Position numbers and translations under genes: made by a program. The notes beneath the pieces were generated by a model. The model searched no databases, was not told the origin of the DNA, and was given only the letters and a program-made list of their open reading frames with translations. Of a stretch of 43,942 nt of DNA, positions 7,595-34,858 are shown piece after piece. Source of the stretch: Hoeflea sp. BAL378 (GTDB lineage: Bacteria > Pseudomonadota > Alphaproteobacteria > Rhizobiales > Rhizobiaceae); NCBI RefSeq assembly GCF_000759435.1, contig NZ_JRJG01000094.1, positions 1 through 43,942 on the forward strand. Reading direction: 5' to 3'. Numbering within the stretch: position 1 is the first letter of the stretch; every line of letters begins with the position of its first letter.

Positions 7595-8506
7595 ATGACA
7601 CCACACCTGACCAATTCCGCGGCAAATCTGCCGCCCTATCCGCACTCCGCCGAGTGCGCAGATCTGCGACAGAAATTCGACGAGCTCGTGAACGAGTTCA
7701 TCGCTCCAAGCCTCACTGTCGACGGCCTCGCCCGGTCGCTCAGCGACGGTATTGAGGAGGTTACCACCAACCTGCGTTCCATCTCCGGTCAGGAGGGGCG
7801 ACTGATTGAGCGCGGCATTGGGCTCGTGGCCAGATGCAATCCGAACCTCGTGGTCCTCACGCAGAATCTTCGGCTACCGGTTACAGCGGCAGCTTTGCAA
7901 TTGGTGGAGAAGAACAACCCGCAGCACTATCGGTCTCTGACGCTGGATGCCGACCAGGGCGGCCGCAAAAGCTATACGCCTGATCTGATCATTCTGAACA
8001 ATGCGACCAGAGTGGCGCATGTGGTCGATGTGAAGCGCAGCCTGACGTCGTACGAGAGCACAAGGATCGATGATCTCAAAAGCCGGATGTTGGCGGCGGC
8101 TCTTGTCGTGCCAGATCTTTTGTACAAGGAACATCGCCGCCTGGTCGCCGAAGAAGTCAGGATCGTTGTTCTCAATGCGGACAATCACAAATCCGATATC
8201 GATGGCGGCATCTGGCCCTTGTCCCATCTCGACCATCTTGTCGAAGTCGTCGGCGCCGGCGAAGCCATCAGGCGCCTCCAGAAGCGGTTTCATGCCCGTA
8301 TCAAGGCAAATTGGACCATGGCTCGCCAAAGCTTTGTTCGTCCGTCGAATGATCATGAAGGACCGCCGGCAACGGTAGCGGCTACGGAAACAGAGGAGCC
8401 CGCCGATGGTGCTGCCCGCCCTGACGACGATGATGCTGCTGTCGCCATCGGCGACGAGCCGAGGTTGATCAAGCTGGGCTTCGCCCAGGTGCCCGCGCGA
8501 CGCTAG
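7595..8506 (+). CDS. PD-(D/E)XK nuclease-like protein, first gene of the split-FtsH operon
   Basis: This is a 303-residue protein with no full-length family that I recognise. AGGAG stands seven bases before the ATG at 7595; the frame is open 20 codons further upstream without a ribosome site. Residues 128-148 read TPDLIILNN, then VAHVVDVKR: Pro129-Asp130 and, 15 residues on, Asp145-Val-Lys147. This is the spacing and hydrophobic setting of a PD-(D/E)XK active site. A preceding helix carries a candidate acidic residue (Glu72 in IERGIGLVAR). The C-terminal 50 residues are acidic and probably disordered. It is followed after 82 bp by the small gene at 8589. DNA cleavage or a decayed nuclease fold used for binding are both possible. 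Confidence 0.72.
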   Translation: MTPHLTNSAANLPPYPHSAECADLRQKFDELVNEFIAPSLTVDGLARSLSDGIEEVTTNLRSISGQEGRLIERGIGLVARCNPNLVVLTQNLRLPVTAAALQLVEKNNPQHYRSLTLDADQGGRKSYTPDLIILNNATRVAHVVDVKRSLTSYESTRIDDLKSRMLAAALVVPDLLYKEHRRLVAEEVRIVVLNADNHKSDIDGGIWPLSHLDHLVEVVGAGEAIRRLQKRFHARIKANWTMARQSFVRPSNDHEGPPATVAATETEEPADGAARPDDDDAAVAIGDEPRLIKLGFAQVPARR

Positions 8507-8588
8507 TGCTCTCGGCTCCACTCAACAACTTCCCCTAACTCAATTAAACGCGTTGTCCGCGACCGGTCAGCGCACGGAGACCCATGCC

Positions 8589-9014
8589 ATGACCTCAACA
8601 ATCGTTCCCTTCCCGAATTCCATCCCGTCACCGGTAACGAAGCCAGGTAGACGACAATCGCGACGTGATCAGATCATGATGCAGCGCGGTCAGTCGTTGT
8701 TGCCTGAACAGACGGCCGCAGCCGATGCCTTGGCCACTGAACTGGTTGGAACATCGCGACCGTGGACTGTGGATGACCATGCTGCCCAGGTCGCGATGGT
8801 CGTTCGGATCGCCATCCGTTCAGCTCAGCATCGAGGGGTCAGTCTACAGAGCATGCTGTCGATCCCCCGTCGTAGGCTCCTCGATCTGTGTGACCAGGGG
8901 GACCCGACATGTCTCGTCGTCCGTGATTGGCTTTTGGGAAATCTGGCACACCTTCCCGACGGCTTTGAAGGGTCTTTCTCTATTGCTACCGTTGTCGACA
9001 GGGGGGACGCGTGA
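8589..9014 (+). CDS. Small hypothetical protein, second gene of the split-FtsH operon
   Basis: This is a 141-residue protein starting MTSTIVPFPNSIPSPVTKPG, with GGAG eight bases upstream of the ATG at 8589. The first 40 residues are basic and proline-rich, then the sequence becomes helical (QTAAADALATELVGTSRPW; DDHAAQVAMVVRIAIRSAQH; MLSIPRRRLLDLC). No catalytic motif is visible. Its stop overlaps the next start (TGATG at 9012-9016), so the product is translationally coupled to the AAA+ ATPase. An adaptor or substrate-recognition role is a guess from position. Confidence 0.68.
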   Translation: MTSTIVPFPNSIPSPVTKPGRRQSRRDQIMMQRGQSLLPEQTAAADALATELVGTSRPWTVDDHAAQVAMVVRIAIRSAQHRGVSLQSMLSIPRRRLLDLCDQGDPTCLVVRDWLLGNLAHLPDGFEGSFSIATVVDRGDA

Positions 9015-10975
9015 TGGACCCGATCGCTGACCGCATCACCCGTCACCTCCTGCGGCGCATCCGCCGCCTGGCGGTCCTCGACCTCTATGCCCATGCCACC
9101 GGTGCCGGTCTTCTCAACTCTCGTCAAATCGAGGACGAAAAGACTACCGGCACCATCTGGAGCATCTCCACCAAGGGGTTGGGGATGCTGGCAGGTGACC
9201 GCACCAGCGCTCGCCGCCTTGTTGCCAGGGCGCTGAAGTGCGGACCGGCGACAGAGGATGACCAGGAGGAGGATAACACGAAGACCGCCGACCCTTGGAC
9301 TTTGGCGGTGGCAGAGGCGGGCAAGGCAACCCGAACGGAGGCTGCCAGCAAGACGCAAGGAAACCACCGGGAAACTCAGTTGATGCTGGGGCTGCTGCGC
9401 GATTTCCCGCTGCAGCCCAATCCAGTTCACGTCGCGATGGCCTTGCTGATCGCCCGTTCTGTCGGTGCCCGGCATGCCGATCTCGGAGCGCTCCGCGAAG
9501 TTCTGCAACGACCCAACCCGGTCGTTATGCTCAAAATCCCCGTCTCGGGATTCGAGCGCCAGTTCGGATTGATGCTGGAGGATTCGCTCATTGCGCCCTT
9601 CTGGGCTTCACTGAAAGATATCGCGGGCGGATCGGCACTGTCTGCTCATTTCCGCGAGTCACGCACCGAGAAGCTCCGCCGCAAGGTGATCACCGCGTCC
9701 GGGCGGGCCAGCGCCAGCGTCTCTGACAGGACGCTGAGGCGACAGCTGAGCACTGCACTGCTCGGTGAGGCTGTGCCAGTGGTCATTGCGGATGAGACGT
9801 CGGTGAGTGTGCGGCCGCAGTTTTCCGCCGCGGCCGACATTGTCTTTGAATTCACCGGCTTCGATCAGGCCCTCATCGCCGAACTTCTACATGTCTGTTG
9901 CGGCATGCCGCCAAGGGTGTCGCTCGACCGGATGAAGACGATGACGTTGGATCCAGCGCATATCTGTCTTGACGATCTGGCCCTTGCCGTCAGGCCAGGC
10001 CGCAGCTTGGGGGCGATTCTGGAAGCCCTTGTGTCCTTGGCTGCCGAACACAGTGAAGAGGAGGACCATGATGACGAGTCGGACAAGACCGGCCGCTGGA
10101 ATAGAAGTACCAAGACGTCGGTCAAGGGGAAAACCAAAGTGATTTCCGTCGACATCATCCAGCCCGAGACCTTAGCCACCGGGAAAACCACGGGTACCGT
10201 CACCAGCAATGCTGGCGCTGTCAGCGGGGCATCATCCACATTCCGCGTTAGCCCTACGCTGAGAGTGGAGACTCTTTCCGGCTATGGCGAGGCGCAAGGC
10301 TGGGCGCTTGACCTCAAGGCTGACCTTCCGCTCTGGCGGGAGGGGGCAATCGGGTGGGATCAGATGAGCACAAAAATGCTGCTCTCGGGCCCCCCGGGAA
10401 CAGGCAAGACAACCTATGCCCGAGCCCTCTGCAATTCGTTGGAGGTGCCTTTGATTGTCAGCTCGGTCGCGTCATGGCTCGAGCCAGGATATCTTGGCGA
10501 TGTCCTCAAACGCATGAGCGCTGTCTTTGAGACCGCGCGCGAGCATTCCCCTTGTATTGTCTTCATCGATGAATTGGATGCCATTGGCAGCAGAGGTGGC
10601 GGACAAGGCAAGCGTCACGACGAATATTGGACGACGGTGATCACGCGTCTGCTCGAGCTGCTGGATGGTGCGATGAAAACCGAGGGAGTGATCGTGGTCG
10701 GGGCGACGAATCTGCCCGGCAAGATTGATCCGGCACTTCTTCGGTCAGGTCGTCTCGAGAGGCATGTCATGATCCCGCCTCCCGATGTCCAGGCTCTGGC
10801 GGGCATTCTCGCTCATCATCTTGGGTCCGACCTTGCCGCGGTTCTTGCCACGGCTCCCGGACAGAGTGAAACACATATCAAAGACCCATCTCCTCGCGCG
10901 CCAAATATTGCGGGCGCCTGCCGCAACGCAATTTCCCCCGATATGACCAACGAAGGGAGACAAGCTCATGTCTGA
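9014..10975 (+). CDS. AAA+ ATPase, FtsH/Cdc48-type core lacking its own lid
   Basis: This is a 653-residue protein from the ATG at 9014, with a GTG one codon earlier. About 420 N-terminal residues are unrecognised. The ATPase core follows: Walker A GPPGTGKT (459-466), Walker B CIVFIDELDAIG (Asp519-Glu520), sensor 1 GATN and the arginine-finger motif LLRSGRLERHV. The chain should then enter the helical lid (SGADIxxLV-type). Instead it ends with about 40 unrelated residues after the HHLGSDL segment. The lid sequence appears at the start of the next gene, which overlaps by eight bases. The pair together corresponds to an FtsH-like machine that unfolds proteins with ATP and feeds a protease. No transmembrane helix is evident, unlike classical FtsH, which suggests a cytosolic complex. 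Confidence 0.85.
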   Translation: MDPIADRITRHLLRRIRRLAVLDLYAHATGAGLLNSRQIEDEKTTGTIWSISTKGLGMLAGDRTSARRLVARALKCGPATEDDQEEDNTKTADPWTLAVAEAGKATRTEAASKTQGNHRETQLMLGLLRDFPLQPNPVHVAMALLIARSVGARHADLGALREVLQRPNPVVMLKIPVSGFERQFGLMLEDSLIAPFWASLKDIAGGSALSAHFRESRTEKLRRKVITASGRASASVSDRTLRRQLSTALLGEAVPVVIADETSVSVRPQFSAAADIVFEFTGFDQALIAELLHVCCGMPPRVSLDRMKTMTLDPAHICLDDLALAVRPGRSLGAILEALVSLAAEHSEEEDHDDESDKTGRWNRSTKTSVKGKTKVISVDIIQPETLATGKTTGTVTSNAGAVSGASSTFRVSPTLRVETLSGYGEAQGWALDLKADLPLWREGAIGWDQMSTKMLLSGPPGTGKTTYARALCNSLEVPLIVSSVASWLEPGYLGDVLKRMSAVFETAREHSPCIVFIDELDAIGSRGGGQGKRHDEYWTTVITRLLELLDGAMKTEGVIVVGATNLPGKIDPALLRSGRLERHVMIPPPDVQALAGILAHHLGSDLAAVLATAPGQSETHIKDPSPRAPNIAGACRNAISPDMTNEGRQAHV

Positions 10976-11732
10976 GACCGATCCATCACCGTCGTCTCAC
11001 TCCCGTCTTGCCAGTCTTGCAATTCAGGCGCTTGGCAGAACCGGCGCCGATATTGAACGTCTCGTCCGCGAAGTGCGCCAACAAGCCCGTCGTGAAAAAC
11101 GGGATCTGACCTGGACAGACATCGAGCACGCGCTTTGTGCAGACCGGATGATCATGTCGGACGACTTGCGCTGGCGTGTCTCGATTCACGAAGCGGGGCA
11201 TGCAATGGCCTGGACACAGCTCGGCATCGGCGAAGTCGAGTCAGTAACCCTCGGCATCAGCAATGTCGGGCAGGTGACCGTTCAACGATATGGCCATCTC
11301 GCTCAGACTGAAGATTGGCTCACCAAAACGATGGCAGCGATACTGGCGGGCAGGGTCGCGGAGCAGCTGGTCATCGGTGAAGCGCTTGCCGGATCGGGCG
11401 GTGGCGAAGACAGCGATCTTGCCAGAGCAACCGGAATTGCCCTGGACGCGGAAACGGCACTCGGTTTTTCTGAGCAAACGCCGTTGTTATACCGCGCCAG
11501 CCCACGGGGCTTCGGTGAGTTGGCGCGCGATCGCGATCTGGCAGACAAGGTGAATGCCAGGCTGGTGGTGGCGGAGAGCGCCGCCCGCGAACTGCTGGAG
11601 GCGGAAGGGTCGAAGCTTATGCAGATCGCCACCCAACTCAATGAAAAGGGCGTCCTGTCGGGAGATGAGCTGCGGCATCTGATGGGCAAGTGTGGGGATG
11701 ACAGTGATGATTACGGTGAACGGCGGCTCTGA
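10968..11732 (+). CDS. M41-family (FtsH-type) zinc metalloprotease carrying the AAA lid
   Basis: This is a 254-residue protein. Residues 14-58 (LASLAIQALGRTGADIERLV and the helix after it) are the AAA+ lid expected at the end of the preceding protein. The peptidase part has the zinc site HEAGH at 74-78 with Glu75 as catalytic base, and the third ligand Asp150 in GGEDSDLARAT, as in FtsH. The ATG at 10968 lies inside the last codons of the ATPase gene (ATGTCTGA overlap) and has GGGAG ten bases upstream, which argues for a real second start rather than a sequencing frameshift. The substrate is unknown. The nuclease-like first gene may be target or partner. Confidence 0.88.
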   Translation: MSETDPSPSSHSRLASLAIQALGRTGADIERLVREVRQQARREKRDLTWTDIEHALCADRMIMSDDLRWRVSIHEAGHAMAWTQLGIGEVESVTLGISNVGQVTVQRYGHLAQTEDWLTKTMAAILAGRVAEQLVIGEALAGSGGGEDSDLARATGIALDAETALGFSEQTPLLYRASPRGFGELARDRDLADKVNARLVVAESAARELLEAEGSKLMQIATQLNEKGVLSGDELRHLMGKCGDDSDDYGERRL

Positions 11733-11922
11733 AACAACGATTCCTTCTGACGCCGCTGAGATTCCGATCAATGATTTGTCGTTTCCACCGCAAACGGCGT
11801 TTGTGCTTGGTATCGGTCGGTCAGTCGCGTCATGGCGGCGCGCCGTCCCGGCTGTTGGCATGGGCGCATCACGCAGAATGGTCGGGCGGGATTTCGTGCA
11901 CGTCGCCGATGATTACATTTGA
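11698..11922 (+). CDS. Possible small protein at the 3' end of the operon
   Basis: This open frame of 74 codons begins inside the protease gene (ATG 11698, overlap of 35 bases) and reads MTVMITVNGGSETTIPSDAA, then FPPQTAFVLGIGRSVASW. No family is recognised and no clear ribosome site is seen. It could be a fifth operon gene or chance. Confidence 0.28.
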   Translation: MTVMITVNGGSETTIPSDAAEIPINDLSFPPQTAFVLGIGRSVASWRRAVPAVGMGASRRMVGRDFVHVADDYI

Positions 11923-11939: not shown

Positions 11940-12120
11940 GCCCGGCAGCTCGATTTGCCTTGATTGCATGCGCGTCGGATTGAGTTGCGGGCAAATCAGT
12001 CTAAATCAGCACAAATCATCTCAATTTACGCTCCCGCGATTCTGAATAGCCGTCGTTCGATTCCCGACGCACAAACGGCGATTCCTCAAGAAACGACGTT
12101 TGCAGAAAGCCTGCGGTAAC
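11940..12120 (+). repeat. Repeat C, copy 1, with 3-4 phased CGATTC units
   Basis: This roughly 180-bp segment is homologous to 15960-16143. Both share a CTCAATTTACGCT-type leader followed by GCGATT units. Here units start at 12036, 12057 and 12078, then after 18 bp at 12096. Three units carry GATTC, a GANTC sequence. The segment lies immediately upstream of the small gene at 12167. Confidence 0.7.
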
Positions 12121-12166: not shown

Positions 12167-12508
12167 ATGGCCAGGATGAGTGCGAAGCAAAGGGCGGACC
12201 AGCAGGTGGTACGCCAGAAGGATCTCCGTGACAGGATGCGGGACAAGCGGCGGCCGTCACGTGATGACATTGCGCGCCTGCTGCTCTGGCAGATTATCAC
12301 GGGCGTCAGCGAGAACCGTGCCGATCGCCGAAAGGTTCTGGATCGGCTCCGCGACGAGATCGTTGAGGGCCTGGAGCGGCAGGGATTTGATGGCCGCGAG
12401 AGTGAGGACGCATTCGAGGAGCTGGTGACCAAATACGAAAAGGGACCTTATCCATTTCGCCCAAAGAGGCATCTGCAGAAGGATGCTGGCGGCTCGGGTA
12501 TGGAATAG
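12167..12508 (+). CDS. Small basic hypothetical protein
   Basis: This is a 113-residue protein starting MARMSAKQRADQQVVRQKDL, with GAGGG six bases upstream. It is strongly charged and helical (RRPSRDDIARLLLWQIITGV; DRRKVLDRLRDEIVEGLERQ) with a tail ending GPYPFRPKRHLQKDAGGSGM-E. It may bind DNA or another protein; no known domain is recognised. Repeat C copy 1 forms its upstream region. Confidence 0.6.
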   Translation: MARMSAKQRADQQVVRQKDLRDRMRDKRRPSRDDIARLLLWQIITGVSENRADRRKVLDRLRDEIVEGLERQGFDGRESEDAFEELVTKYEKGPYPFRPKRHLQKDAGGSGME

Positions 12509-12948: not shown

Positions 12949-14031
12949 ATGTCAGTCTGCGCTCAGGTTGAGGTTCCAATCGTCACAACCGGTCGCACGA
13001 GTGGTGCCCGCAAGCTGCAGATCATTGAGACAAAAGTTATCCGCCATGTCGACATTCAAGAATTCGAGGAGCGGGATGCGCCTGTTGCACTGACATGCGG
13101 TCTCGGAGAATACCGATTCAATGACGGTAAGTTTTTTCAGCGGGCAGGCAAACGCCACGGCCCGGGAGATAATTGCCGTATGGATTGGTTCAGTTCATCC
13201 AGCCCATTGGTCGGACGTCTATCCTATCGCGCGCTCCACAATAAGCTAGTATATGAAATCGGCGAGACTCGGGTTGTTGATCTGACCTCCACGATTGGGA
13301 GGATACGTGACAACCTCCCTCTCCTGCCGCCAGCCCCAGTCAAGGACATGGATATGGCGCTCGTTGAATTACAGCTTGCAGAATTCGGCGAGCTTGCCCC
13401 AACGCTGAGGGCGGTCGGCGAAATCATCTACTGTCCTGTCGATCAGCCTGTCCTGGTTCTCTCTAGGCCACAGACTTTTTCAGGGCTGAGCTATCTATGT
13501 GTGGTGGGAAGCATAAACGAGGTCGTTGGTCGGGTCCGCAGAAATGAAGGGCCCATCGGCGTCTACTCTCTGGCTGATCTTGAAGAGGCTCGCAACCGCG
13601 CGACGCAATTGGGCAAGGCTGGTAGTGGCTCGATATCGCCGAACCCTCGTGATCGGATTGTCGTGCACGATACGAGCCTGTTTGATCTTGACTGCCTGGC
13701 GTTGAACGCGGCAATTTTCGCGAAAATTTTCAGCAATGAGTTTTACAGACGCCGAGCCGATCAGCCCGGACCTGAGATGGTCAAGCACATGCTGGAACTT
13801 GGTATGGAGCGGCTGAGTCTGGTCGACCTGCTCCATTCGCACCTCAAAGAGTTTTTCGAAACCGGTCTCGGCGATCCGCTGATCGATATTGCCGCAAAGA
13901 TTGTTGAAAGGCCTCCAGGCGATCCTCTTTGGAAAGTGGCTACACGTGAACTGATCGAGCAGCGCCAATTCATGTGCAACCGTCTTGATAGTGATCCGAT
14001 CGCCCTGATGGTAAATATACATCCGCTTTAG
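12949..14031 (+). CDS. Hypothetical protein, 360 residues
   Basis: No family is recognised. The start MSVCAQVEVPIVTTGRTSGA has GGAG about five bases upstream. The sequence has a compact N-terminal part (residues 1-110), a hydrophobic strand-rich middle (LSYLCVVGSINEVVGRVRR) and a helical C-terminal part (MVKHMLELGMERLSLVDLLH; LIDIAAKIVERPPGDPLW). No transmembrane segments or catalytic motif are visible. The composition is normal for coding DNA and there is no competing frame. It is followed by a WGR-domain gene on the same strand. Confidence 0.7.
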   Translation: MSVCAQVEVPIVTTGRTSGARKLQIIETKVIRHVDIQEFEERDAPVALTCGLGEYRFNDGKFFQRAGKRHGPGDNCRMDWFSSSSPLVGRLSYRALHNKLVYEIGETRVVDLTSTIGRIRDNLPLLPPAPVKDMDMALVELQLAEFGELAPTLRAVGEIIYCPVDQPVLVLSRPQTFSGLSYLCVVGSINEVVGRVRRNEGPIGVYSLADLEEARNRATQLGKAGSGSISPNPRDRIVVHDTSLFDLDCLALNAAIFAKIFSNEFYRRRADQPGPEMVKHMLELGMERLSLVDLLHSHLKEFFETGLGDPLIDIAAKIVERPPGDPLWKVATRELIEQRQFMCNRLDSDPIALMVNIHPL

Positions 14032-14804: not shown

Positions 14805-15098
14805 GTGGATGCTGAAACCAGCCCGGGATGTGGGTCTACAACCGCCCTGCTCTATCGATCTGCCCATGAGCATCCGTCACTGCTGTCGCTTTATCGACAG
14901 CTCGTACAACAGGTGAAAGTCCGGCTTGAGGCTGCGGAGGAGATGGCCAAAAACCCTCTGTCAAATCATCGCACTCAGCTTGAAGCGTTGGCAAGCCGTG
15001 CTGCCGAGCGAAAGGTACTTGATGGCGACGAAGTGAGATCGGTGATCAGTGCAGGCTCGACCGCTGCATCGGAGAATCCAAAGAATCAGGCGCCCTGA
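14805..15098 (+). CDS. Possible hypothetical protein, 97 residues
   Basis: The frame reads MDAETSPGCGSTTALLYRSA, then HPSLLSLYRQLVQQVKVRLE and HRTQLEALASRAAERKVLDG. The start used is a GTG. The helical, charged composition is protein-like, but no family and no clear ribosome site are seen. The 21-bp repeat array begins a few bases after its stop. Confidence 0.4.
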   Translation: MDAETSPGCGSTTALLYRSAHEHPSLLSLYRQLVQQVKVRLEAAEEMAKNPLSNHRTQLEALASRAAERKVLDGDEVRSVISAGSTAASENPKNQAP

Positions 15099-15102
15099 AA
15101 CA

Positions 15103-15333
15103 GCGATTCAGAAATCTGATCCCGCGTTGCCAGATCCGGCTCTTCCGATTCGGACCCCTTCACACGCGTTGCCGATCCATGATGTACCGATTCACAACCC
15201 TGAGACGGCGTTCCCAATCAAGGCTTTGCCGTTGCGGAACTCCGCATTCGCGTTGCTGAATTCAGCTTCGGCGATTCCTGCCTGAACAGAACCGTTTCCA
15301 ATATCGGCTTTGCCGTTTCCCTTTCGGCCTTCG
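15103..15333 (+). repeat. Array of eleven degenerate 21-bp units (iteron-like, GANTC-rich)
   Basis: Successive units begin at 15103, 15124, 15145, 15166, 15187, 15208, 15229, 15250, 15271, 15292 and 15313. The period is exactly 21 bp and each unit opens with (G/C)CG(A/T)T. Units 1, 3, 5 and 9 carry GATTC. One in-phase TGA inside the array (around 15283) does not interrupt the period, so the periodicity is probably not that of a protein. No rep gene is adjacent. Confidence 0.8.
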
Positions 15334-15692: not shown

Positions 15693-15797
15693 GCGATTCG
15701 GAACTCGGACACGTCGATTCGGATGCAGGATTCCGCGATTCTGAATCCGTCTTTTTCGATTCGGCATCAGAGATTATCGATTCTGAACACTCAATTA
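15693..15797 (+). repeat. Array of five 21-bp CGATTC units with seven GANTC sites
   Basis: Units start at 15693, 15714, 15735, 15756 and 15777, all with CGATTC at the same place and usually GAA or GGA after it. GANTC occurs at 15695, 15716, 15729, 15737, 15743, 15758 and 15779. The array is preceded by the same CATCTCAATTTATGCTGCC leader found before repeat C. The spacing of two helical turns puts the sites on one face of the DNA. Confidence 0.85.
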
Positions 15798-15959: not shown

Positions 15960-16143
15960 AACTTGCTTACAAGGCGATCCACATTGTCTTGATTGGTGCC
16001 ACATCGGATCGAGTTGCAGGCAATTTAACGCACATTATCTCAATTTACGCTGCCGCGATTCCGATTGCGCGAAATTCGATTCAACATGAGCAATCCGCGA
16101 TTCTTCTGGAAGCGGCGTTTGCTGAAACGCTGCAAGCATGACT
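15960..16143 (+). repeat. Repeat C, copy 2, with four phased units
   Basis: Homologous to 11940-12120. Units begin at 16055, 16076 and 16097, and after 18 bp at 16115. The same 21-21-18 spacing occurs in copy 1, so the layout is conserved although the bases between the CGATTC cores differ. The leader TTATCTCAATTTACGCTGCC matches the other copies. Confidence 0.7.
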
Positions 16144-18547: not shown

Positions 18548-21500
18548 TTAAGGCTTCACCCGAGCGGGTCGACGATAACGCTTCCCGAAAGCGCGTCTGT
18601 GGTCTCTCTTGGCTCGCGCCTTCACTGCTGCGTTCCGCTTCGAGAGGGTTAAGGGATCAGGTTTCCAAGCATGCGCCGCGCGCGGTCCTTCTAGCTTGAG
18701 ACCATCATCCGTCGAACGGCCCTTCTTCCAACGGTCAAACAAAGCCCTTCCTCCATCCTGATCGGAAAGCGTCCTCTTCAATCCCGCAAGGATTTGGCGC
18801 CGGTCATTGGTCCTGTACCGGAGAAGATTTCGCATCAGCTGCCCGATGGCATATTCTCCATTGGGTGTTGGTCCGGTCTGCAAGAGCCGGACAACCGCTT
18901 CGGTCGTCACCCTATAGTGGGAAAGAATGTCAGCCTTCTCGACCCCTATCGCTTCGGCGATGGCGTCGATGGTGAACCTCGTTTCCGGGGTGGCCTGCGC
19001 TACGATCTCAACGATGTCGCCAGCGCTGCAGGCGATGGAGGTATGCCGCAGCAGTGCAAGCTGGCCAACCAACCGGGCATACACCTTGTCATCCAGACGC
19101 CCAATCTCTTTGGCAGCCAGGAAAATCGCCTGGAGCCACACGGCTCGCACTTTTAGGCCACCAGCCCAGTCACGATATCGTTTGTCGTCGGTGACGAGCA
19201 ACATGCCATGTTCGCGAGCCACAAAGATTGGATCGAGCGCGCCGTGGCGAATGGTCTCGAGCAATCTCGGGTCGATGTCATTTGGAGCGTGGACTGGCAC
19301 CACGTCGCAATCAGTCTGCAAGGCATTCTCGCGCATCGCGATGGCATGGGCAAGCTGTTTGGCACGCTCCGGCGTAAACTCGTCGAAATGGAACTGGCCC
19401 TTGTGGAAGTAGGCACTGCCGGAATGTTCGGTTTCGGGAATTAGATCATCGTCTTCATGCAACTGGCCGATCTCATCGGCGGTCGATCTGGCAAGGAGAA
19501 TCCTTCCGAACAGGTCCTTCAAAACATCGAGACCGTTTATCCCCACGACAGCCCAATAGGTCAGCGTGTCGAGGACTACACCCTTGCCAAAATGGGCTTT
19601 AGCCGTTTGCGTCGCCCAATTTCGCTCGGGCAGCGCGCCCTCGCAGGCCTCGATGCCGATCCCTTCTACTCTCAGTGAATCCGCAAAGCGCAGAACGCTG
19701 CCTCCTCCGGAGAATTCCGTCAGCACCGATATGGGCAAAGGGCCATTGGTATAGAGTTCGTGAATCCTCTCCCGTCGCTCGCCCTGACGTCTCATCACAT
19801 CGAGGAACGGGCCTATGTCATCGCCGACAGCGCGGATGACGTAGAAGCCGTCCTCATCAGGAAACCGGATACTGAAGTTCTCGGTCAGGTCGACGTACGC
19901 ATGTATGTACTTGTGCCGAACCTGCTGCACCGTCCAGCGAACGGTCCGCCCTAGACGGTCCTCGACATCGAATGAATCACCCACGCGGTGCCCGATGGCT
20001 GCCTCGGCCACAACGTGCCCCTTGCCGAACTTCTTCTCGGAGGGTTCGCCGGGTCCATCTACCACCAGGAACTGGTTGGTTTGACCATCGTCGGATTCCA
20101 AGCTGGTCCACATTCCCACGCCGATGGTGGCATTGCCCAGTTCGTGAATTCGCTTCAACTGGCCCAGGACCAAGCCGATCCATTTAAGCGCGACCTTCGG
20201 ATCGTTCCGATCTGCGTCCAGAACGGCGTAGCCCAGATCAAGACCATCCTCGGCGCGCCCGCCAGCGACGAGCAGGTGTGCGAAATCCATCTTCTCCCGA
20301 GGACTGCCCTGCATCGACGACACATCCAGATCGGCGACCAATGCCGCAAGTTGCGACTTCCGTTTCAACCGGAACAACGTCTGGGCATGCATCAGGATAG
20401 GCTTAATTACATCGGGCGAAAGCTCCCGCGACTTGAGGAAACGGTCCTCGGCCAGATTCAACTCGCCCCTGTGGAAGTGCATGATGCCTTCTATCATCAC
20501 GTACTGGCGCAGGTTCCTGATCGAATCCTCAAGGTTCGCGAAGAACTCGACCGCCCGCGCTCGTGGAGGGAATTCGTATGCGAAGGCACTGGCCAAATCG
20601 AACAGGTCTTTCGAGTCGACGTCGTCGTCGACGTAGCCGTCCATCAATCTGATCACCGCTGCATGATCATGGAGAAGGGTTGCATAACCGGCCACCATCG
20701 CGCGGCTGGCGATGTGCGAGCTGTTTGAGATCGAGGCGAGAGCATTGCCATAGGCACGAGATGATGTCTCCGGCAGACCAAGCTCATCCGCCAGTTGCGC
20801 CAAAAGCACCGATGCACGACCGTTCTTCTTGTACCGCACGATCATGTCGTTCAGATCAGACGACGCACCGGCTGGGTCGTCCAGCGCGATCTTTCTTATG
20901 CTAGCGCTCGACGCCAATACCTTGACCAGCTCGCGTTCGGTCTCCGGGACCGTCTCGAGAGCCTCGGTCCCATCCAGTCCCATCAGATAATCCCAGTCGC
21001 CCAGCCGGGCAGCGATCTGGGCACGCATAAGGAGCGCAGGTCCGACTTCGGCAAGTTTGGGGAAAGCCTCTCTTGCCAGCGCTTCGTCGCCCAGTTCCAT
21101 GGCCAACGCAGCCACGCGAACCTGAATCTCCGGGTCCCTGCCGCCAGAAACGGCTGCACCCTCGAGCATCAGCGCCTTCGCAGCATCACTGTCGCCTACC
21201 GCAAATAGAGCCAATGCGCCGTTGATGCAAAGCGCGAGATGGTCGGGTCGGTCAGGAGCCTCCTCCTTCTTCGCCAGATTCCAAATATCGACCAGGTCCT
21301 TCCCTGCCTGGCGCAGACGTTCCCTGCCCTCCGCGGTCAGCTTCCAGCTCGTGCGATGGTCGCCATCGACAATTTCGGTGATGTCGGCCTCAGCGGCATG
21401 GCGCTTGTAGAATTCGTCTTCGGCGTCGCACTCCCGTCCGCGTCGAGCCAGTTCGATCCACGACGGATCTCCGGCGTTTCGCAGGTTCAGAAGGTGATAC

Positions 21501-22546
21501 TTCCTGACTGCTTCGGAGGCTCTGACCGCTTCTGGTATTCTGTCGATCGCATCGGCAACACCGGCATAGCCGCCCGCTTGAACGACATATCCGGCTAGAA
21601 CCTCGTTATCGGCAGACTTGGTCAGTTCGGCCAAGCCCTGCTCGAACGCCTTCTGGTGATCGCCACGCAGCATCATCGCCAAGATGGCGTTGGCAGCAGC
21701 CTTCGGATCCTCGGGTGCATGTGACACTGCCTCTTCCAGCATGTCAGCCGCTGTAGCCTCGTCGCTCAACTGCAGATGGCAGTGGGCTATATTTGCCTTC
21801 ACCCTGAACCATATGTGCCCCGAATTCTTTTCGGTCAGGGTCTTCAGCAGTTCGTTCAAAAGGTCGAGCGATGACCGCGGTTTTCCATTCTTGGCGCGGT
21901 CCCTGTACCGATCGATCTCGGCATCGAGCGCCGCTTCTGCCGGATCGGCAGAAGAACCATCGACGGTCGCCCGCGCCAGTAGCAGAGCCTTCACATCTCG
22001 GATCTCGACCAGCGTGTTGCTTTGAAGGCCGACAATCTCCTCATGGCGCTGGGACTGGAGCTCCGCAGTCGGGCTATGGTTAGGGTCGAACATCAAAGCG
22101 ACGTCGGAATGGGCCGATATCTCGTCCTCAAGCGTATCCCATCCCCAAGCGCGCACGACTATGGTGCGACCCAGCACGCGCTGCTCCTCGGTTAGCTTGG
22201 CAGCGACGGTAGAAAGTGGAGCGTCGTCGTCGGCCGTCGTTGTGAAGAAGTATTCGGTGAGCCTCGGCTCATAATTGAGCGCCTTTTCAAAATCGGCCCG
22301 AAGTTCCTTCTCGCTGGCCTTCTCGCCCTGCCCCTTGCACTTGCATTGCACGCCCACAATCTTGGCGGTGTCGCCATCCCGGTACCCGTACATGTCCATC
22401 CCATGCTGGGCCTGACCGTTCTTCCCGAAACGATGGATTGAGGGGTCGTCCAAGATCCGGCGCCACAACAGCGCCGATCCCTTCTCGAAATCTTGCCACA
22501 GTTTTGGTCGTGGAATGTGGACCTGATTGTACGCCGATGCTGACAC
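18548..22546 (-). CDS. Large conflict-type protein: restriction-like nuclease, TPR region, GreAB-C-like domain, PIN nuclease
   Basis: This is a 1332-residue protein. The N-terminal 130 residues have an Mrr-like PD-(D/E)XK site: HGMDMYGYRDGD with Asp51, then IVGVQCKCKG with Gln67-Cys-Lys69. Residues about 210-800 are alpha-helical repeats of TPR type (for example HRGELNLAEDRFLKSRELSP). Residues about 835-890 (FGKGHVVAEAAIGHRVGDSF, then the strand pair to AYVDL) resemble the C-terminal domain of GreA/GreB. Residues about 985-1140 form a PIN domain: GVVLDTLTYWAVVGINGL, TADEIGQL and LLVTDDKRYRDWA supply the acidic residues. TPR-GreAB-C-PIN proteins are known as presumed biological-conflict effectors; the added N-terminal nuclease is notable. 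The start MSASAYNQVHIPRPKLWQDF gives the full nuclease domain. It is divergent from hipBA. Confidence 0.82.
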   Translation of the reverse strand: MSASAYNQVHIPRPKLWQDFEKGSALLWRRILDDPSIHRFGKNGQAQHGMDMYGYRDGDTAKIVGVQCKCKGQGEKASEKELRADFEKALNYEPRLTEYFFTTTADDDAPLSTVAAKLTEEQRVLGRTIVVRAWGWDTLEDEISAHSDVALMFDPNHSPTAELQSQRHEEIVGLQSNTLVEIRDVKALLLARATVDGSSADPAEAALDAEIDRYRDRAKNGKPRSSLDLLNELLKTLTEKNSGHIWFRVKANIAHCHLQLSDEATAADMLEEAVSHAPEDPKAAANAILAMMLRGDHQKAFEQGLAELTKSADNEVLAGYVVQAGGYAGVADAIDRIPEAVRASEAVRKYHLLNLRNAGDPSWIELARRGRECDAEDEFYKRHAAEADITEIVDGDHRTSWKLTAEGRERLRQAGKDLVDIWNLAKKEEAPDRPDHLALCINGALALFAVGDSDAAKALMLEGAAVSGGRDPEIQVRVAALAMELGDEALAREAFPKLAEVGPALLMRAQIAARLGDWDYLMGLDGTEALETVPETERELVKVLASSASIRKIALDDPAGASSDLNDMIVRYKKNGRASVLLAQLADELGLPETSSRAYGNALASISNSSHIASRAMVAGYATLLHDHAAVIRLMDGYVDDDVDSKDLFDLASAFAYEFPPRARAVEFFANLEDSIRNLRQYVMIEGIMHFHRGELNLAEDRFLKSRELSPDVIKPILMHAQTLFRLKRKSQLAALVADLDVSSMQGSPREKMDFAHLLVAGGRAEDGLDLGYAVLDADRNDPKVALKWIGLVLGQLKRIHELGNATIGVGMWTSLESDDGQTNQFLVVDGPGEPSEKKFGKGHVVAEAAIGHRVGDSFDVEDRLGRTVRWTVQQVRHKYIHAYVDLTENFSIRFPDEDGFYVIRAVGDDIGPFLDVMRRQGERRERIHELYTNGPLPISVLTEFSGGGSVLRFADSLRVEGIGIEACEGALPERNWATQTAKAHFGKGVVLDTLTYWAVVGINGLDVLKDLFGRILLARSTADEIGQLHEDDDLIPETEHSGSAYFHKGQFHFDEFTPERAKQLAHAIAMRENALQTDCDVVPVHAPNDIDPRLLETIRHGALDPIFVAREHGMLLVTDDKRYRDWAGGLKVRAVWLQAIFLAAKEIGRLDDKVYARLVGQLALLRHTSIACSAGDIVEIVAQATPETRFTIDAIAEAIGVEKADILSHYRVTTEAVVRLLQTGPTPNGEYAIGQLMRNLLRYRTNDRRQILAGLKRTLSDQDGGRALFDRWKKGRSTDDGLKLEGPRAAHAWKPDPLTLSKRNAAVKARAKRDHRRAFGKRYRRPARVKP

Positions 22547-22801: not shown

Positions 22802-23137
22802 ATGCCTACACCACACAACCCTCCCGCCGCTGTACGGCGCGCCTTGCGCAAGCTCGGCGCCGACATCTACGATGCCCGTCGGCGTCGGCGGCTGCCGATG
22901 GCTGTCGTGGCGGAGCGCGCCTTCACGTCCCGCTCGACCCTGCAAAAGGTCGAGGCCGGGGACACCAATGTCAGTATCGGCATTTATGCGGGCGTTCTTC
23001 AGGCGCTCGGCCTGCTCGACGGTCTGAGCCAGATCGCCGACATCGGCAACGACCCAGTCGGACAAGCGATGGCCAGCGCCGAACTGCCCAAGCACGTCCA
23101 TCTCAAGCGAACAACCGGATCGTCTCGCGATGGCTGA
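22802..23137 (+). CDS. hipB: HipB-like antitoxin/regulator (first hipBA module)
   Basis: This is a 111-residue protein from the ATG at 22802 (MPTPHNPPAAVRRALRKLGA). An Xre-type helix-turn-helix spans DARRRRRLPMAVVAERAF, TSRSTLQKVEAGDTNVSIGI and YAGVLQALGL. HipB binds DNA as a dimer and neutralises HipA. The stop overlaps the hipA start by eight bases. Upstream, CTACA (22765) and TGTAG (22783) form a weak inverted repeat that may be part of its operator. Confidence 0.82.
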   Translation: MPTPHNPPAAVRRALRKLGADIYDARRRRRLPMAVVAERAFTSRSTLQKVEAGDTNVSIGIYAGVLQALGLLDGLSQIADIGNDPVGQAMASAELPKHVHLKRTTGSSRDG

Positions 23138-24377
23138 CTTCGAGGTGCTTATCGACCTGGACGGCCGCACGCGCCCCATTGGTCTGGCCAGGAGCAATCG
23201 CGTCCGCGGCACGGAGACTATCCTTTTCGAATATTATGGCGCGTGGCTCGATGATCCCGATCGGTTCTCGCTCGAGCCTGCCCTTGCCCTGACCCGTGGT
23301 GCCTTCGCCCCTCCTGCCGGACTGGTGACTTTCGGCTCCATAGGAGACTCCGCGCCCGATACATGGGGCCGCCGTCTGATGCAGCGGGCCGAGCGCCGTC
23401 TTGCCGAACGCGAAAGCCGCACCGTGCGTACCCTTACCGAAAGCGATTACCTGCTCGGCGTCGCCGACGAGACCCGTCTAGGCGCACTCCGATTCCGCTG
23501 GGCCGGCGAAGAGACGTTTCAGGCGCCGATCCACACCGGCGTCCCCGCCCTGATTGAACTCGGGCGACTGCTCCAGATTACCGAGCGTATCCTCCGGGAC
23601 GAGGAAACGGACGAAGACCTTCAACTCATCTTCGCCCCCGGCTCCTCCCTCGGCGGCGCGCGGCCGAAAGCGTCGGTCATCGACCAGCACGGGTACCTCT
23701 CCATCGCCAAATTCCCGAGGGAAACCGACGATTACAGCATGGAGACGTGGGAGGAAATTGCGCTACGGCTGGCTGACCAGGCCTGCATCACCACACCTCA
23801 CCATGAGCTGATCGAGGTCGCTGGCAAGGCGGTGATGCTGTCGCGGCGCTTCGATCGCGCCGGCGCGATCCGCTCTCCTTTCCTATCGGCAATGGCTATG
23901 GTGGGCGCCAAGGACGGTGAGCGCGGCAGCTACCCGGAGATCGTGGACGCTCTTACGCGACATGGTGCGCAGGCAAAGGCCGACGCACATGCCCTCTATC
24001 GGCGCGTCGTCTTCAACGTGCTGATTTCCAATGTCGACGATCATTTGCGCAACCATGGATTCCTTTGGCTCGGTAAGGCGGGATGGTCTCTTTCTCCAAC
24101 CTATGACCTTAATCCTGTGCCCACCGACCTCAAGGCGCGCGTGCTGACGACGAACATCGACCTCGACGAGGGCACCTGCTCGCTTGACCTGCTTGAGGCG
24201 GCTTCGGAGTTCTTCGGCCTCACACTGCTGCAGGCCCGAGCAATTATTAAAGAGGTCGCGACCGTGACCGCGACGTGGCGTGAAACCGCCAAGGTGGCCG
24301 GCGCCCGCTCTGCTGAGATTACCCGGATGGCCAGCGCCTTTGAGCACGATGATCTCAAGCGGGCGCTGGCGCTATGA
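23130..24377 (+). CDS. hipA: HipA-like serine/threonine kinase toxin (first module)
   Basis: This is a 415-residue protein. The N-terminal HipA domain (GLARSNRVRGTETILFEYYG; GDSAPDTWGRRLMQRAERR) is followed by the kinase: ATP-loop GSSLGGARPKASV, a lysine strand YLSIAKFPRETD, the catalytic loop FNVLISNVDDHLRNHGF and the metal-binding LSPTYDLNP. All key residues are present. HipA kinases phosphorylate targets such as GltX and halt growth, producing persistence; on plasmids the pair acts as a stabilisation module. Translation is coupled to hipB by an eight-base overlap. Confidence 0.88.
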   Translation: MADFEVLIDLDGRTRPIGLARSNRVRGTETILFEYYGAWLDDPDRFSLEPALALTRGAFAPPAGLVTFGSIGDSAPDTWGRRLMQRAERRLAERESRTVRTLTESDYLLGVADETRLGALRFRWAGEETFQAPIHTGVPALIELGRLLQITERILRDEETDEDLQLIFAPGSSLGGARPKASVIDQHGYLSIAKFPRETDDYSMETWEEIALRLADQACITTPHHELIEVAGKAVMLSRRFDRAGAIRSPFLSAMAMVGAKDGERGSYPEIVDALTRHGAQAKADAHALYRRVVFNVLISNVDDHLRNHGFLWLGKAGWSLSPTYDLNPVPTDLKARVLTTNIDLDEGTCSLDLLEAASEFFGLTLLQARAIIKEVATVTATWRETAKVAGARSAEITRMASAFEHDDLKRALAL

Positions 24378-33045: not shown

Positions 33046-33636
33046 GTGGCTTATAAAACGGAGCACATAACGCAGCAACTGCGCAGCGCGCGTGAAGCGC
33101 GGAAGATGAGCCAGCGCGAGCTGAGCGCACGTTCCGGCCTGACGCAAAGCCATATTTCTCAGATAGAGCGGGGCACCATGGAGCCCGGTCTGGACAGCCT
33201 CGTGGACGTGGCGCGCGCTCTCGATCTTGAGATCGTCCTTGCCCCGAAAAAACTGATGCCGGCAATCCGCAGTATCCTAGACAGCATAGCGACATCGAAC
33301 GATATCGTGCCATCCGACCAGCGCAAACTGGTGGGGCGCCTTGAGCGGTGGTCTGCGCAGCACAGGGGCGTGCTTGGCAGTGCAGTCGACGCAGATGCGT
33401 TCAAAAGCAGCCTCGCGCTCTTACGGCATCTTTCTTTGTCGAGCGAGGATATCGACACCCTCAAGGAGGCTACTGCCCCCCTGGACAAGTGGGGGAGTGA
33501 TCCTCCGTCCGTCGGTGAACTGAGCAAGATCGTTGATGCCGTAAGACAACTGCGCAACGCCGCAGTACACCGCGACCGTCATGACGTGTTCCCTCGCTCG
33601 GCCTATGCACTGGATGAGGAAGACGACGATGCCTAA
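33046..33636 (+). CDS. hipB: HipB-like antitoxin with C-terminal extension (second module)
   Basis: This is a 196-residue protein from GTG 33046, with AGGA seven bases before. The Xre helix-turn-helix reads LRSAREARKMSQRELSARSG and LTQSHISQIERGTMEPGLDS. About 110 extra residues follow (MPAIRSILDSIATSNDIVPS; LDKWGSDPPSVGELSKIVDA), more than in a standard HipB, ending in an acidic tail. It should repress its own operon at the palindrome upstream and block the kinase. The stop overlaps hipA by eight bases. Confidence 0.82.
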   Translation: MAYKTEHITQQLRSAREARKMSQRELSARSGLTQSHISQIERGTMEPGLDSLVDVARALDLEIVLAPKKLMPAIRSILDSIATSNDIVPSDQRKLVGRLERWSAQHRGVLGSAVDADAFKSSLALLRHLSLSSEDIDTLKEATAPLDKWGSDPPSVGELSKIVDAVRQLRNAAVHRDRHDVFPRSAYALDEEDDDA

Positions 33637-34858
33637 GGTCACGGTGCTCGATGTCAGACTGTATGGTGAACCGGTCGCCACCCTTACGAACCTGCAGGAC
33701 GGGCGCACGATCTTCGCGTTCAACGATGCCTATATCGAAGACGAAAAGCGACCGACGCTCAGCCTGTCCCTGAAAGACCCGTTCGGCGCGTTCATTACGA
33801 GATTCAGGCCGTACAATATCGTCGTCCCGCCCTTCTTTTCGAACCTGTTGCCGGAAGGACCGCTGCGCAAATACCTCGCTGATCGTGCGGGTGTGAAGCC
33901 GTCGCGGGAATTCTTCCTGCTCTGGATGCTCGGCCGGGACCTGCCCGGGGCTGTGACGGTGCATCCCTCCGAAGGGGATGATGCGCCTCTGGACAATGAG
34001 CAGGCGATCACCGAAGCGCGGCCGAATGCGCTACGCTTTTCGCTGGCGGGTGTGCAGCTCAAATTCTCCGCCTTCCAGAATGACAAAAAGGGTGGCGGCC
34101 TGACCATTCCGGCCCAGGGCACCGGTGGCTCGTGGATCGTGAAGCTTCCGTCGCAGCAGTATAGCGGCGTGCCCGAGAACGAGTTCGCAATGATGACCGT
34201 CGCCGGTATGATGGGTATGGACGTGCCCGAGATCCAGCTGGTTGATCTCAATGCCGTGAGCGGTCTGCCGCAGGGGGTGGGCGAACTGCACGGACAGGCG
34301 CTGGCGATCAAGCGTTTTGACCGCACGCCGGAGGGTCCAGTGCATATCGAGGATTTTGCGCAAGTCTTCGGCGTCTTGCCCGATCATAAATACGACAAGG
34401 GCAATTACCGGATGATCGGGCGCGTGTTGGGGATCGAAGCAAGCACAGCCGATGTTGCGGAGTTCATCCGCCGTCTGGTCTTCAGCACACTCATCGGCAA
34501 TGGCGACATGCATTTGAAGAACTGGTCGCTCATCTATCCAGATCGCCGCACCCCAGCGCTCTCTCCAGCCTATGATCTGTTGTCGACCATCCCTTACATC
34601 GAGGGGGAAGATACGGCAGCGCTCAATTTCTCTCGCACCAAAAAGATGGCAGCTCTGTCGAAGGATGAGCTGGAACATATGGCTGCGAAAGCGGAGCTTT
34701 CCGAAAAGCTGGTTATGGATACCGCGCGAGAGACGGTTGAACGGTTCAGGGCGGTATGGGTGGCGGAGAAAAAGAACCTACCGATGGCGTCCAAGATCGC
34801 CGACGCGATCGATACGCACGCCCCGACGGTCGAGTTGTACCGGGAGTTTGCGAAGTAG
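33629..34858 (+). CDS. hipA: HipA-like kinase toxin (second module)
   Basis: This is a 409-residue protein, MPKVTVLDVRLYGEPVATLT onward, with GAGGA before the ATG at 33629. The HipA N-domain is seen in PPFFSNLLPEGPLRKYLADR and FLLWMLGRDLPGAVTVHP; the kinase in RFSLAGVQLKFSAFQND, SWIVKLPSQQYSGVPENEFA, the catalytic loop FSTLIGNGDMHLKNWSLIYP and LSPAYDLLSTIPY. All core motifs are present. It is only distantly similar to the copy at 23130, so the two modules likely have different partners. Confidence 0.88.
   Translation: MPKVTVLDVRLYGEPVATLTNLQDGRTIFAFNDAYIEDEKRPTLSLSLKDPFGAFITRFRPYNIVVPPFFSNLLPEGPLRKYLADRAGVKPSREFFLLWMLGRDLPGAVTVHPSEGDDAPLDNEQAITEARPNALRFSLAGVQLKFSAFQNDKKGGGLTIPAQGTGGSWIVKLPSQQYSGVPENEFAMMTVAGMMGMDVPEIQLVDLNAVSGLPQGVGELHGQALAIKRFDRTPEGPVHIEDFAQVFGVLPDHKYDKGNYRMIGRVLGIEASTADVAEFIRRLVFSTLIGNGDMHLKNWSLIYPDRRTPALSPAYDLLSTIPYIEGEDTAALNFSRTKKMAALSKDELEHMAAKAELSEKLVMDTARETVERFRAVWVAEKKNLPMASKIADAIDTHAPTVELYREFAK

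Follow-up and report, generated by a model that had tools for sequence, protein, structure and literature searches.

Organization and conservation of the locus

The window analysed here is the whole of contig NZ_JRJG01000094.1 of Hoeflea sp. BAL378 (43,942 bp), called C94 among the 281 contigs of the 5.48 Mb host genome. It carries on the forward strand an operon of four genes. Gene 1 (7595–8506, 303 amino acids, aa) encodes a predicted PD-(D/E)XK nuclease, gene 2 (8589–9014, 141 aa) a small protein, gene 3 (9014–10975, 653 aa) a tandem AAA protein, assigned by Pfam, structural model and catalytic residues, and gene 4 (10968–11732, 254 aa) the remainder of an AAA lid followed by an M41 zinc peptidase, assigned by Pfam and profile matches. 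M41 AAA proteases are familiar chiefly as membrane-bound proteins made of one chain. A preliminary description of the window had reported four genes in one direction, the last three overlapping, and all this is borne out by the sequence: genes 2 and 3 overlap at a TGATG starting at 9012, genes 3 and 4 at ATGTCTGA starting at 10968.

A genome scan yielded 91 relatives of gene 1. Eighty loci were kept, 68 of which extend for at least 4.5 kb downstream of gene 1. In all 68 gene 1 is followed on the same strand by gene 3 and gene 4; the conservation of the gene order, posed as a question in the preliminary description, is thereby established. Genes 3 and 4 are found as two open reading frames (ORFs) in 67 of these loci, as one ORF in the other (L049, Phyllobacterium trifolii), and gene 2 was recognised in 53. 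Split, order and catalytic residues are kept across sequences down to about 30% identity. The host genome has genes 1, 3 and 4 in triplicate, on contigs C94, C107 and C67. The C107 and C67 copies are 72 and 66% identical to the window copy in gene 4, 56 and 56% in gene 3, 66 and 53% in gene 1, and gene 2 is present in the ORF lists of both.

A protease split inside the AAA lid

Gene 3 matches Pfam AAA with an expectation value (E) of 8.7e-34. A degenerate N-terminal AAA-like region (about residues 165–355) precedes an active-type AAA domain (about 426–603), the start of a lid, and a loose tail of about 37 low-confidence residues. K465, D519, E520, R577 and R580 are invariant in 43/43 sequences, and Walker A, Walker B and the arginines of the second region of homology are thus intact. 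The structural model (predicted local distance difference test, pLDDT, 78.4; predicted template modelling score, pTM, 0.54) aligns with Cdc48, p97 and Rix7 over about 500–565 columns (best E 1e-16), and for this reason the N-terminal half looks like a second, degenerate AAA domain devoid of Walker A; template modelling (TM) scores are near 0.26, and how the domains lie relative to each other is accordingly unsure.

Gene 4 matches Peptidase_M41 in Pfam (1.3e-12). Its profile aligns with solved FtsH chains from position 14 to 248, that is from mid-lid to the end (E 1e-30), and the match to AAA_lid_3 (E 0.0036, 17.3 bits) lies below the cut-off of 27.2. The HEAGH motif and Asp150, earlier pointed out as the M41 site, are present; E75, H78 and D150 are invariant in 57/57 sequences, H74 in 56/57 (Y in L084).

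Invariant positions of gene 3 extend to about residue 606, and the model features lid-type helix at 592–603 and 606–613. As the invariant positions run past the start of this helix, the break is inside the lid, not before it: gene 3 has the lid start, and gene 4 opens with the remainder. The preliminary description was right in assigning a full AAA+ core to gene 3, and a lid region continuing into M41 to gene 4; it was inexact in leaving gene 3 without a lid and in placing the whole lid in gene 4.

According to Kyte-Doolittle plots, neither chain has a stretch with the hydrophobicity of a membrane helix (maxima of 1.42 in gene 3 and 1.26 in gene 4, versus 2.26 in the host FtsH), and neither matches FtsH_ext or the FtsH N-terminal domain in Pfam. 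Scores against the NCBIfam FtsH equivalog TIGR01241 (127.7 bits for gene 3, 63.3 for gene 4) are below the cut-off of 600. The low hydropathy of both chains and the natural fusions described below support the suggestion that the pair makes a cytosolic two-chain FtsH-like machine.

Gene 3 occurs in two ORFs, which part approximately where the degenerate AAA gives way to the active one, in L023 (4497–6730), L102 (8721–10759) and one copy of genome G046 (20017–22041 of L145+L146); these are either further splits or decay. Frames of 138 aa matching the C-terminal half of gene 4 only are found at G075:C29:159655, G273:C1:3659068, G263:C13:14998 and G106:C102:18136, and are a possible non-catalytic M41 partner.

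Split and single-chain forms

In 78 loci the overlap of genes 3 and 4 measures 4 nucleotides in 56 and 8 in 15 (71/78 together). Gene 4 is in one frame relative to gene 3 in 60 of these loci, in another frame in 18. A frameshift or assembly artefact was rejected because the split recurs in the three diverged host copies (53–72% identical) and in two reading-frame relations. Single-chain versions of the operon are found in L049 and L105–L118. L116 features gene 1, gene 2, a 1080-aa frame with both domains, and the small genes g7 and g5 discussed below. Relatives of gene 1 flank both split and fused forms, and homologues are not, as the preliminary description had envisaged as a refutation, always single-chain and devoid of a nuclease-like neighbour.

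Chains were compared in a tree of 100 rows, made by a quick method, which includes 80 split and 20 fused forms (FtsH and L022 among the latter). The distribution of split and fused labels requires 3 changes, and the starred branches force 2 or more of these; shuffles average 18.6. Single-chain forms occupy the outermost branches. Close to the base of the main group are L120 (split), L118, L112 and L113 (fused), and L049 (fused); the fused L114–L117 are nested within this group. Since most single-chain forms are placed outside the split ones, it is likely, as judged from these sequences, that a membrane-free FtsH-like protease underwent fission in particular lineages, followed by refusion; this direction falls short of proof because the tree is of the quick type and has long branches (FtsH, L022, L124, L118, L049, L120 and others).

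The predicted nuclease and the small proteins

The preliminary description had seen in gene 1 a PD-(D/E)XK-like site made by Asp130, Asp145 and Lys147. These residues (D130 ... D145-x-K147) are invariant in 47/47 aligned sequences, as are E67 and E72; P129 is invariant in the same set, and replaced by V in the plasmid copy L023. In the AlphaFold2 model (pLDDT 82.4) strands 131–135 and 140–147 carry the PD ... (D/E)-x-K motif. A Foldseek comparison with the PDB ranks first 18 chains (E 8e-3 to 0.14, TM-scores by query length up to 0.33) from R2 retrotransposons, SgrAI, arenavirus and La Crosse polymerases, MunI and McrBC, all of which we take to contain an endonuclease domain of the PD-(D/E)XK (restriction-endonuclease-like) kind. 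A fold lacking a nuclease core, the other outcome contemplated earlier, is not what the model suggests: it leans to nucleases, through matches that are weak. Pfam nuclease matches are sub-threshold (VRR_NUC at E 0.046). Gene 1 is thus a predicted PD-(D/E)XK deoxyribonuclease (DNase). The L098 copy of gene 1 (7833–9005) is broken into two ORFs. In L021 (5150–7750, an Acidiphilium plasmid) a gene with a sub-threshold match to the NERD nuclease adjoins a relative of gene 3 with the ATPase only, and no M41 gene is annotated beside it.

Gene 2 has no match in Pfam, NCBIfam, PADLOC or PHROG. Its significant PDB matches are designed helical proteins, and were dropped as uninformative. Genes 1, 2 and 4 have no match in PADLOC 2.0.0 at E ≤1, and gene 3 matches AAA domains only. 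Two further small genes accompany the operon. The first, g5 (12167–12508 in the window, forward strand, 113 aa), encodes a small basic protein conserved in 70/80 loci; it was not found at the C107 copy of the host. The second, g7, has a sub-threshold match to DUF3102, and is present in 72/80 loci, in 64 directly upstream on the same strand. The window contains g5 and lacks g7. It also contains g6 (12949–14031, forward strand, 360 aa), a neighbour of no assigned family found also in L020 and L026. A 776-aa protein of no assigned family resides in L069 (14049–16376) and 18 other loci, mostly downstream of g5. A possible small ORF is located between gene 4 and g5 in L007 (about 11000–11250, MSFDWKRH...), L018 and L040. 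It ends in the second of the repeat blocks described below, and is interrupted in the window and in L026.

GATTC arrays upstream of g5

The interval between gene 4 and g5 is marked by GATTC pentanucleotides spaced 21 bp apart, on the g5 strand. In the window, two units directly after gene 4 form a first block (11739–11764), three units upstream of g5 a second one (12038–12084). Regions upstream of 76 g5 genes contain 455 GATTC, versus 43.6 in shuffles, and 15 GAATC only; the regions are related, and hence not independent. GATTC density is 8.55 per kb versus 0.46 in controls, at least 3 units are found in 68/76 regions, and the spacing is 21 bp in 242/381 neighbouring pairs. In loci that have g5 inverted at another place, the arrays move with g5. 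The same regions are also enriched in AATTGCGC (49/76 regions), ACAAATTGC (45) and the palindrome AAACGNCGTTT (17). A further array with 21-bp spacing is found in L007 (10774–11239).

A perfect GATTC triple occurs in 58/80 test loci and 0/20 control loci. In the host genome it is found 10 times in forward orientation, never in reverse nor as the backward control, each time close to the module on C67 or C94; it is absent from the C107 copy. Among 297 genomes drawn from the family, 80 contain the triple: 37 of the 55 with gene 1 and 43 of the 242 without, an odds ratio of 9.5 whose p-value is not strict because the genomes are kin. Among 150 listed triple places (67 genomes), 87 are no more than 10 kb away from gene 1 or gene 4, 23 are more distant in genomes with gene 1, and 40 belong to genomes without. 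At least 36 of 81 listed gene 1 matches have a triple within 10 kb. In the 43 triple-bearing genomes without gene 1, many matches look like coding heptads.

GATTC conforms to GANTC, the site of CcrM methylation. Methylation by CcrM is not favoured as the cause of the arrays, because skipped phase positions are GANTC in only 1/147 cases. The arrays could be a series of putative binding sites for a protein reading one face of the helix. Alternatively, they could be a translated heptad. Stop codons within blocks lean to one open frame (8/97 in that frame, 34 and 47 in the other two), and a near-open frame spans the g5-nearest block in 52/59 cases; starts are mostly lacking, as an in-frame ATG lies ahead in only 23 of these, and 22/381 neighbouring spacings are both ≤60 bp long and no multiple of three.

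Additional array blocks are found in the window after a gene-4-like fragment (14805–15098, forward strand), which covers profile positions 162–248 only and hence has no catalytic residues. They comprise a partial array in 42-bp steps (15105–15193, with units at 15105, 15147 and 15189), five units (15695–15783) and three units (16057–16103), the latter two with 21-bp spacing, all on the forward strand. A second gene-4-like fragment followed by its own arrays is similarly found in L026 (13540–13866).

Distribution and mobility

Gene 1 is present in 55 of the 297 genomes of the family draw (host included) and in 37/109 genera, often in multiple copies (three in the host, three in G046, five in G297). 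At least 61 of the 81 listed gene 1 matches have a gene 4 match on the same strand 1.7–3.2 kb downstream, pairing being allowed up to 6 kb; two of the 81 are pieces of one gene (G113). Of the remaining 20, six lie less than 3 kb from the downstream end of their contig, and several are weak matches of short length. A wide distribution was rejected, as gene 1 was found in 1/385 genomes drawn from the class, the host itself, and in 4/398 drawn from the phylum, the host and three genomes of the same family. It is found in 11 of 72,556 plasmid records, which are also the best 11 records for gene 3, and copies occur as well on contigs of 3.5–4.8 Mb. Because of its presence in a fraction of genomes and genera, often in several copies, and of the recombinases nearby, the module is regarded as accessory and mobile, patchy across Rhizobiaceae.

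A phage origin was rejected: none of 50,697 phage records matches gene 1, and gene 4 is matched by four distant Listeria phage records only (29% identity over 70% of gene 4). PHROG AAA families match gene 3, and one of them, phrog_30773, also gene 4; genes 1, 2, g5 and g6 have no PHROG match.

The window itself is a repABC-type plasmid contig, as denoted by RepA-like and RepC proteins, a ctRNA and an S-element. The latter two, both in the replication region, are the sole Rfam matches in the window at the gathering threshold, and an RNA element at the locus was rejected on this ground. The contig also carries ietAS, a tyrosine recombinase, two HipA-type genes (23130–24377 and 33581–34858), and a gene (18548–22546) for a protein of 1332 aa that contains a PIN-TPR-GreABC domain.

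Genomic context and proposed function

We favour, with moderate confidence, the view that the operon is a mobile conflict module, in which a soluble two-chain FtsH-like protease controls the nuclease encoded by gene 1. Gene 3 would form a cytosolic AAA ring of tandem domains, one of which is active. Gene 4, translated with gene 3 as one of two coupled chains, would add the rest of each lid and an M41 ring, the two together making an FtsH without membrane anchor. The gene 1 product would be the PD-(D/E)XK DNase effector. The ATP-driven protease may restrain the nuclease, or may free it by degrading a partner, for which gene 2 is the best candidate; a phage or rival element upsetting the balance would let the nuclease attack DNA. 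Plasmids and genomic islands would carry the module as a conflict system, and g5 with its 21-bp GATTC arrays is a possible control point. The preliminary description had left the choice between plasmid stability and phage defence; the latter is likelier.

The neighbourhood of the operon is consistent with this interpretation. Proteins that recur near the module in a set of 87 loci are an HNH endonuclease (26), a serine recombinase (19), the 776-aa protein (19), a protein with a sub-threshold phage-integrase match (18), and also Mrr; additional clusters were named HsdM- and HsdR-like by eye. Eighteen flanking stretches were compared with 17 control stretches, taken from the same contigs at a distance of about 100 kb (88 and 36 kb for two of them). 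At E ≤1e-10, PADLOC families number 185 among 107 flank proteins and 43 among 124 control proteins, and the enrichment near defence genes envisaged in the preliminary description was thus found. The first 25 flank families include HNH, PDC-S02, PbeA, DrmMI, GajB-like, types I, IIG, III and IV restriction, and others. In the flanks alone, Pfam identified HNH_2 (10), ResIII (5), Mrr_cat (4), HipA_C (3) and parts of MmeI (2). Of ten large proteins picked next to the G308 copy and two copies of G046, 7 match PADLOC. One match is to a type III methylase, at 1156 bits; a GajB-like helicase and a DruE-like protein are also among them, together with DISARM-like helicase stretches and weaker matches.

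A number of data weigh against the interpretation as a conflict module. The figures of 185 and 43 count model families, not proteins or loci, and contents were drawn from the first 25 families on each side. Control stretches also contain one Hachiman pair and mads matches: their first 25 families are 22 HamA/HamB models, each matched by one protein, two mads and one PDC-M23B. Non-defence Pfam families recur in the flanks (Lactamase_B in 4 proteins, BPD_transp_2 in 2), and residence among defence genes can be due to hitch-hiking on a mobile element. Gene 1 has no PDB fold match at E ≤0.001, with unrelated folds from rank 19 on in Foldseek, and no sequence match to any solved nuclease. Gene 2 was not recognised in 15/68 loci. 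Residue 493 of gene 3, in the pore loop, is Y or F in 25/43 sequences and H in 18/43, and the pore-loop aromatic is therefore not universal. Among the matches listed in the family draw, 13 gene 4 matches above 190 bits have no adjacent gene 1 match.

The module may instead be the core machinery of a rhizobial mobile element, serving transfer, replication or integration control, with the defence genes as cargo. Nuclease and protease would act on the DNA or recombination complexes of the element, and arrays and g5 would be an origin, centromere or recombination site. This explanation, the most serious competitor, is less probable, yet it would account for the several diverged copies per genome (three in the host, five in G297), the recombinases nearby, the residence of the module beside repABC in NT-25 plasmid 3, the strand-polar 21-bp-spaced arrays tied to g5, and the additional array blocks after the gene 4 fragment. 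Each recombinase cluster, however, is found in only 18–19/87 loci, at varying positions, and the arrays accompany a relocated g5, not gene 1. Transfer RNA genes lie within 40 kb at only 2/8 chromosomal loci, which gives little sign of a tRNA-borne integration site; element ends and empty sites were not searched.

A more specific version of the conflict module is a protease-gated DNase immune system, in which the lid-split makes ring closure regulable, and g5 and the arrays mark the carrier element as self versus rival DNA. It would be a new class of mobile immune system, and is rather improbable.

Somewhat less probable still is element maintenance of the toxin-antitoxin type, gene 1 (or gene 4) being a toxin held by a labile partner, and loss of the element killing the cell. 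The window fits this scheme, as a repABC-type plasmid contig with two HipA genes and ietAS, a precedent reportedly described by Yamamoto in 2009 as a maintenance system of toxin-antitoxin logic, element loss killing the cell. Plasmid maintenance cannot be the general role, since copies also reside on contigs of 3.5–4.8 Mb, where a plasmid-loss function is not needed; moreover, no antitoxin family was recognised in Pfam, NCBIfam and PADLOC searches, and four to six genes are many for a toxin-antitoxin unit.

An ordinary or decayed protease locus, with an FtsH paralogue split by chance among unrelated neighbours, could hold for single decayed copies, as the gene 4 fragment of the window and the broken gene 1 of L098 illustrate, and is very improbable otherwise: for the whole family it is refuted by the 68/68 gene order, and conservation of split, order and catalytic residues to about 30% identity, in two reading-frame relations, speaks against it.

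Should nuclease and protease of the conflict module act jointly in defence, an M41 branch would be added to the immune systems of nitrogen-fixing and plant-associated bacteria. A soluble M41 form cut in the lid, whose operon also occurs naturally with a single chain, provides a test of the communication between AAA ring and protease, and the g5-linked GATTC arrays are a separate puzzle that can be tested.

Comparison with known systems

A literature search over listed entries and passages found no report on the operon, a split FtsH or GATTC arrays, which is weak evidence of absence; the passages of PMC12839542 and PMC10924106 searched by term do not describe the operon.

IetAS and the module share an ATPase and a protease encoded by separate neighbouring genes. 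The preliminary description had seen the same principle in both, and as a principle of gene pairing this stands. The parallel extends no further: the proteases belong to different families (S8 in ietAS, M41 in gene 4), and the AAA similarity is generic, as gene 3 scores 77 bits against IetA, versus 339 for the IetA of the window, and gene 4 has no PADLOC match. McrBC and further restriction systems pair an AAA-type nucleoside triphosphatase with a PD-(D/E)XK nuclease. The module features such a pairing, its nuclease being a predicted one, and the McrBC chain 7vsr_M is the rank 15 fold match of gene 1, a weak one (E 0.11); it differs in having a protease and an ATPase of the FtsH/Cdc48 type. 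Tandem AAA proteins such as Cdc48/p97 resemble gene 3 over the columns aligned by the model. In contrast, the first AAA-like region of gene 3 has no Walker A, and a separate protease chain completes the lid.

With FtsH (TIGR01241) the module shares homologous AAA core, lid and M41 domain, including HExxH, the third Asp ligand, Walker A/B and the arginines. Unlike FtsH, it is made by two chains cut inside the lid, has an extra degenerate AAA, shows no membrane helix or FtsH N-terminal domain in either chain, and resides in an operon with a predicted nuclease. The single-chain cytosolic AAA-M41 proteins of Alphaproteobacteria (among them L022 of Azospirillum and L105–L118) have the same domains in the same order, and differ in being one chain. 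L105–L118 also have a gene 1 homologue upstream, as the module does, whereas none of the genes annotated next to L022 is gene-1-like.

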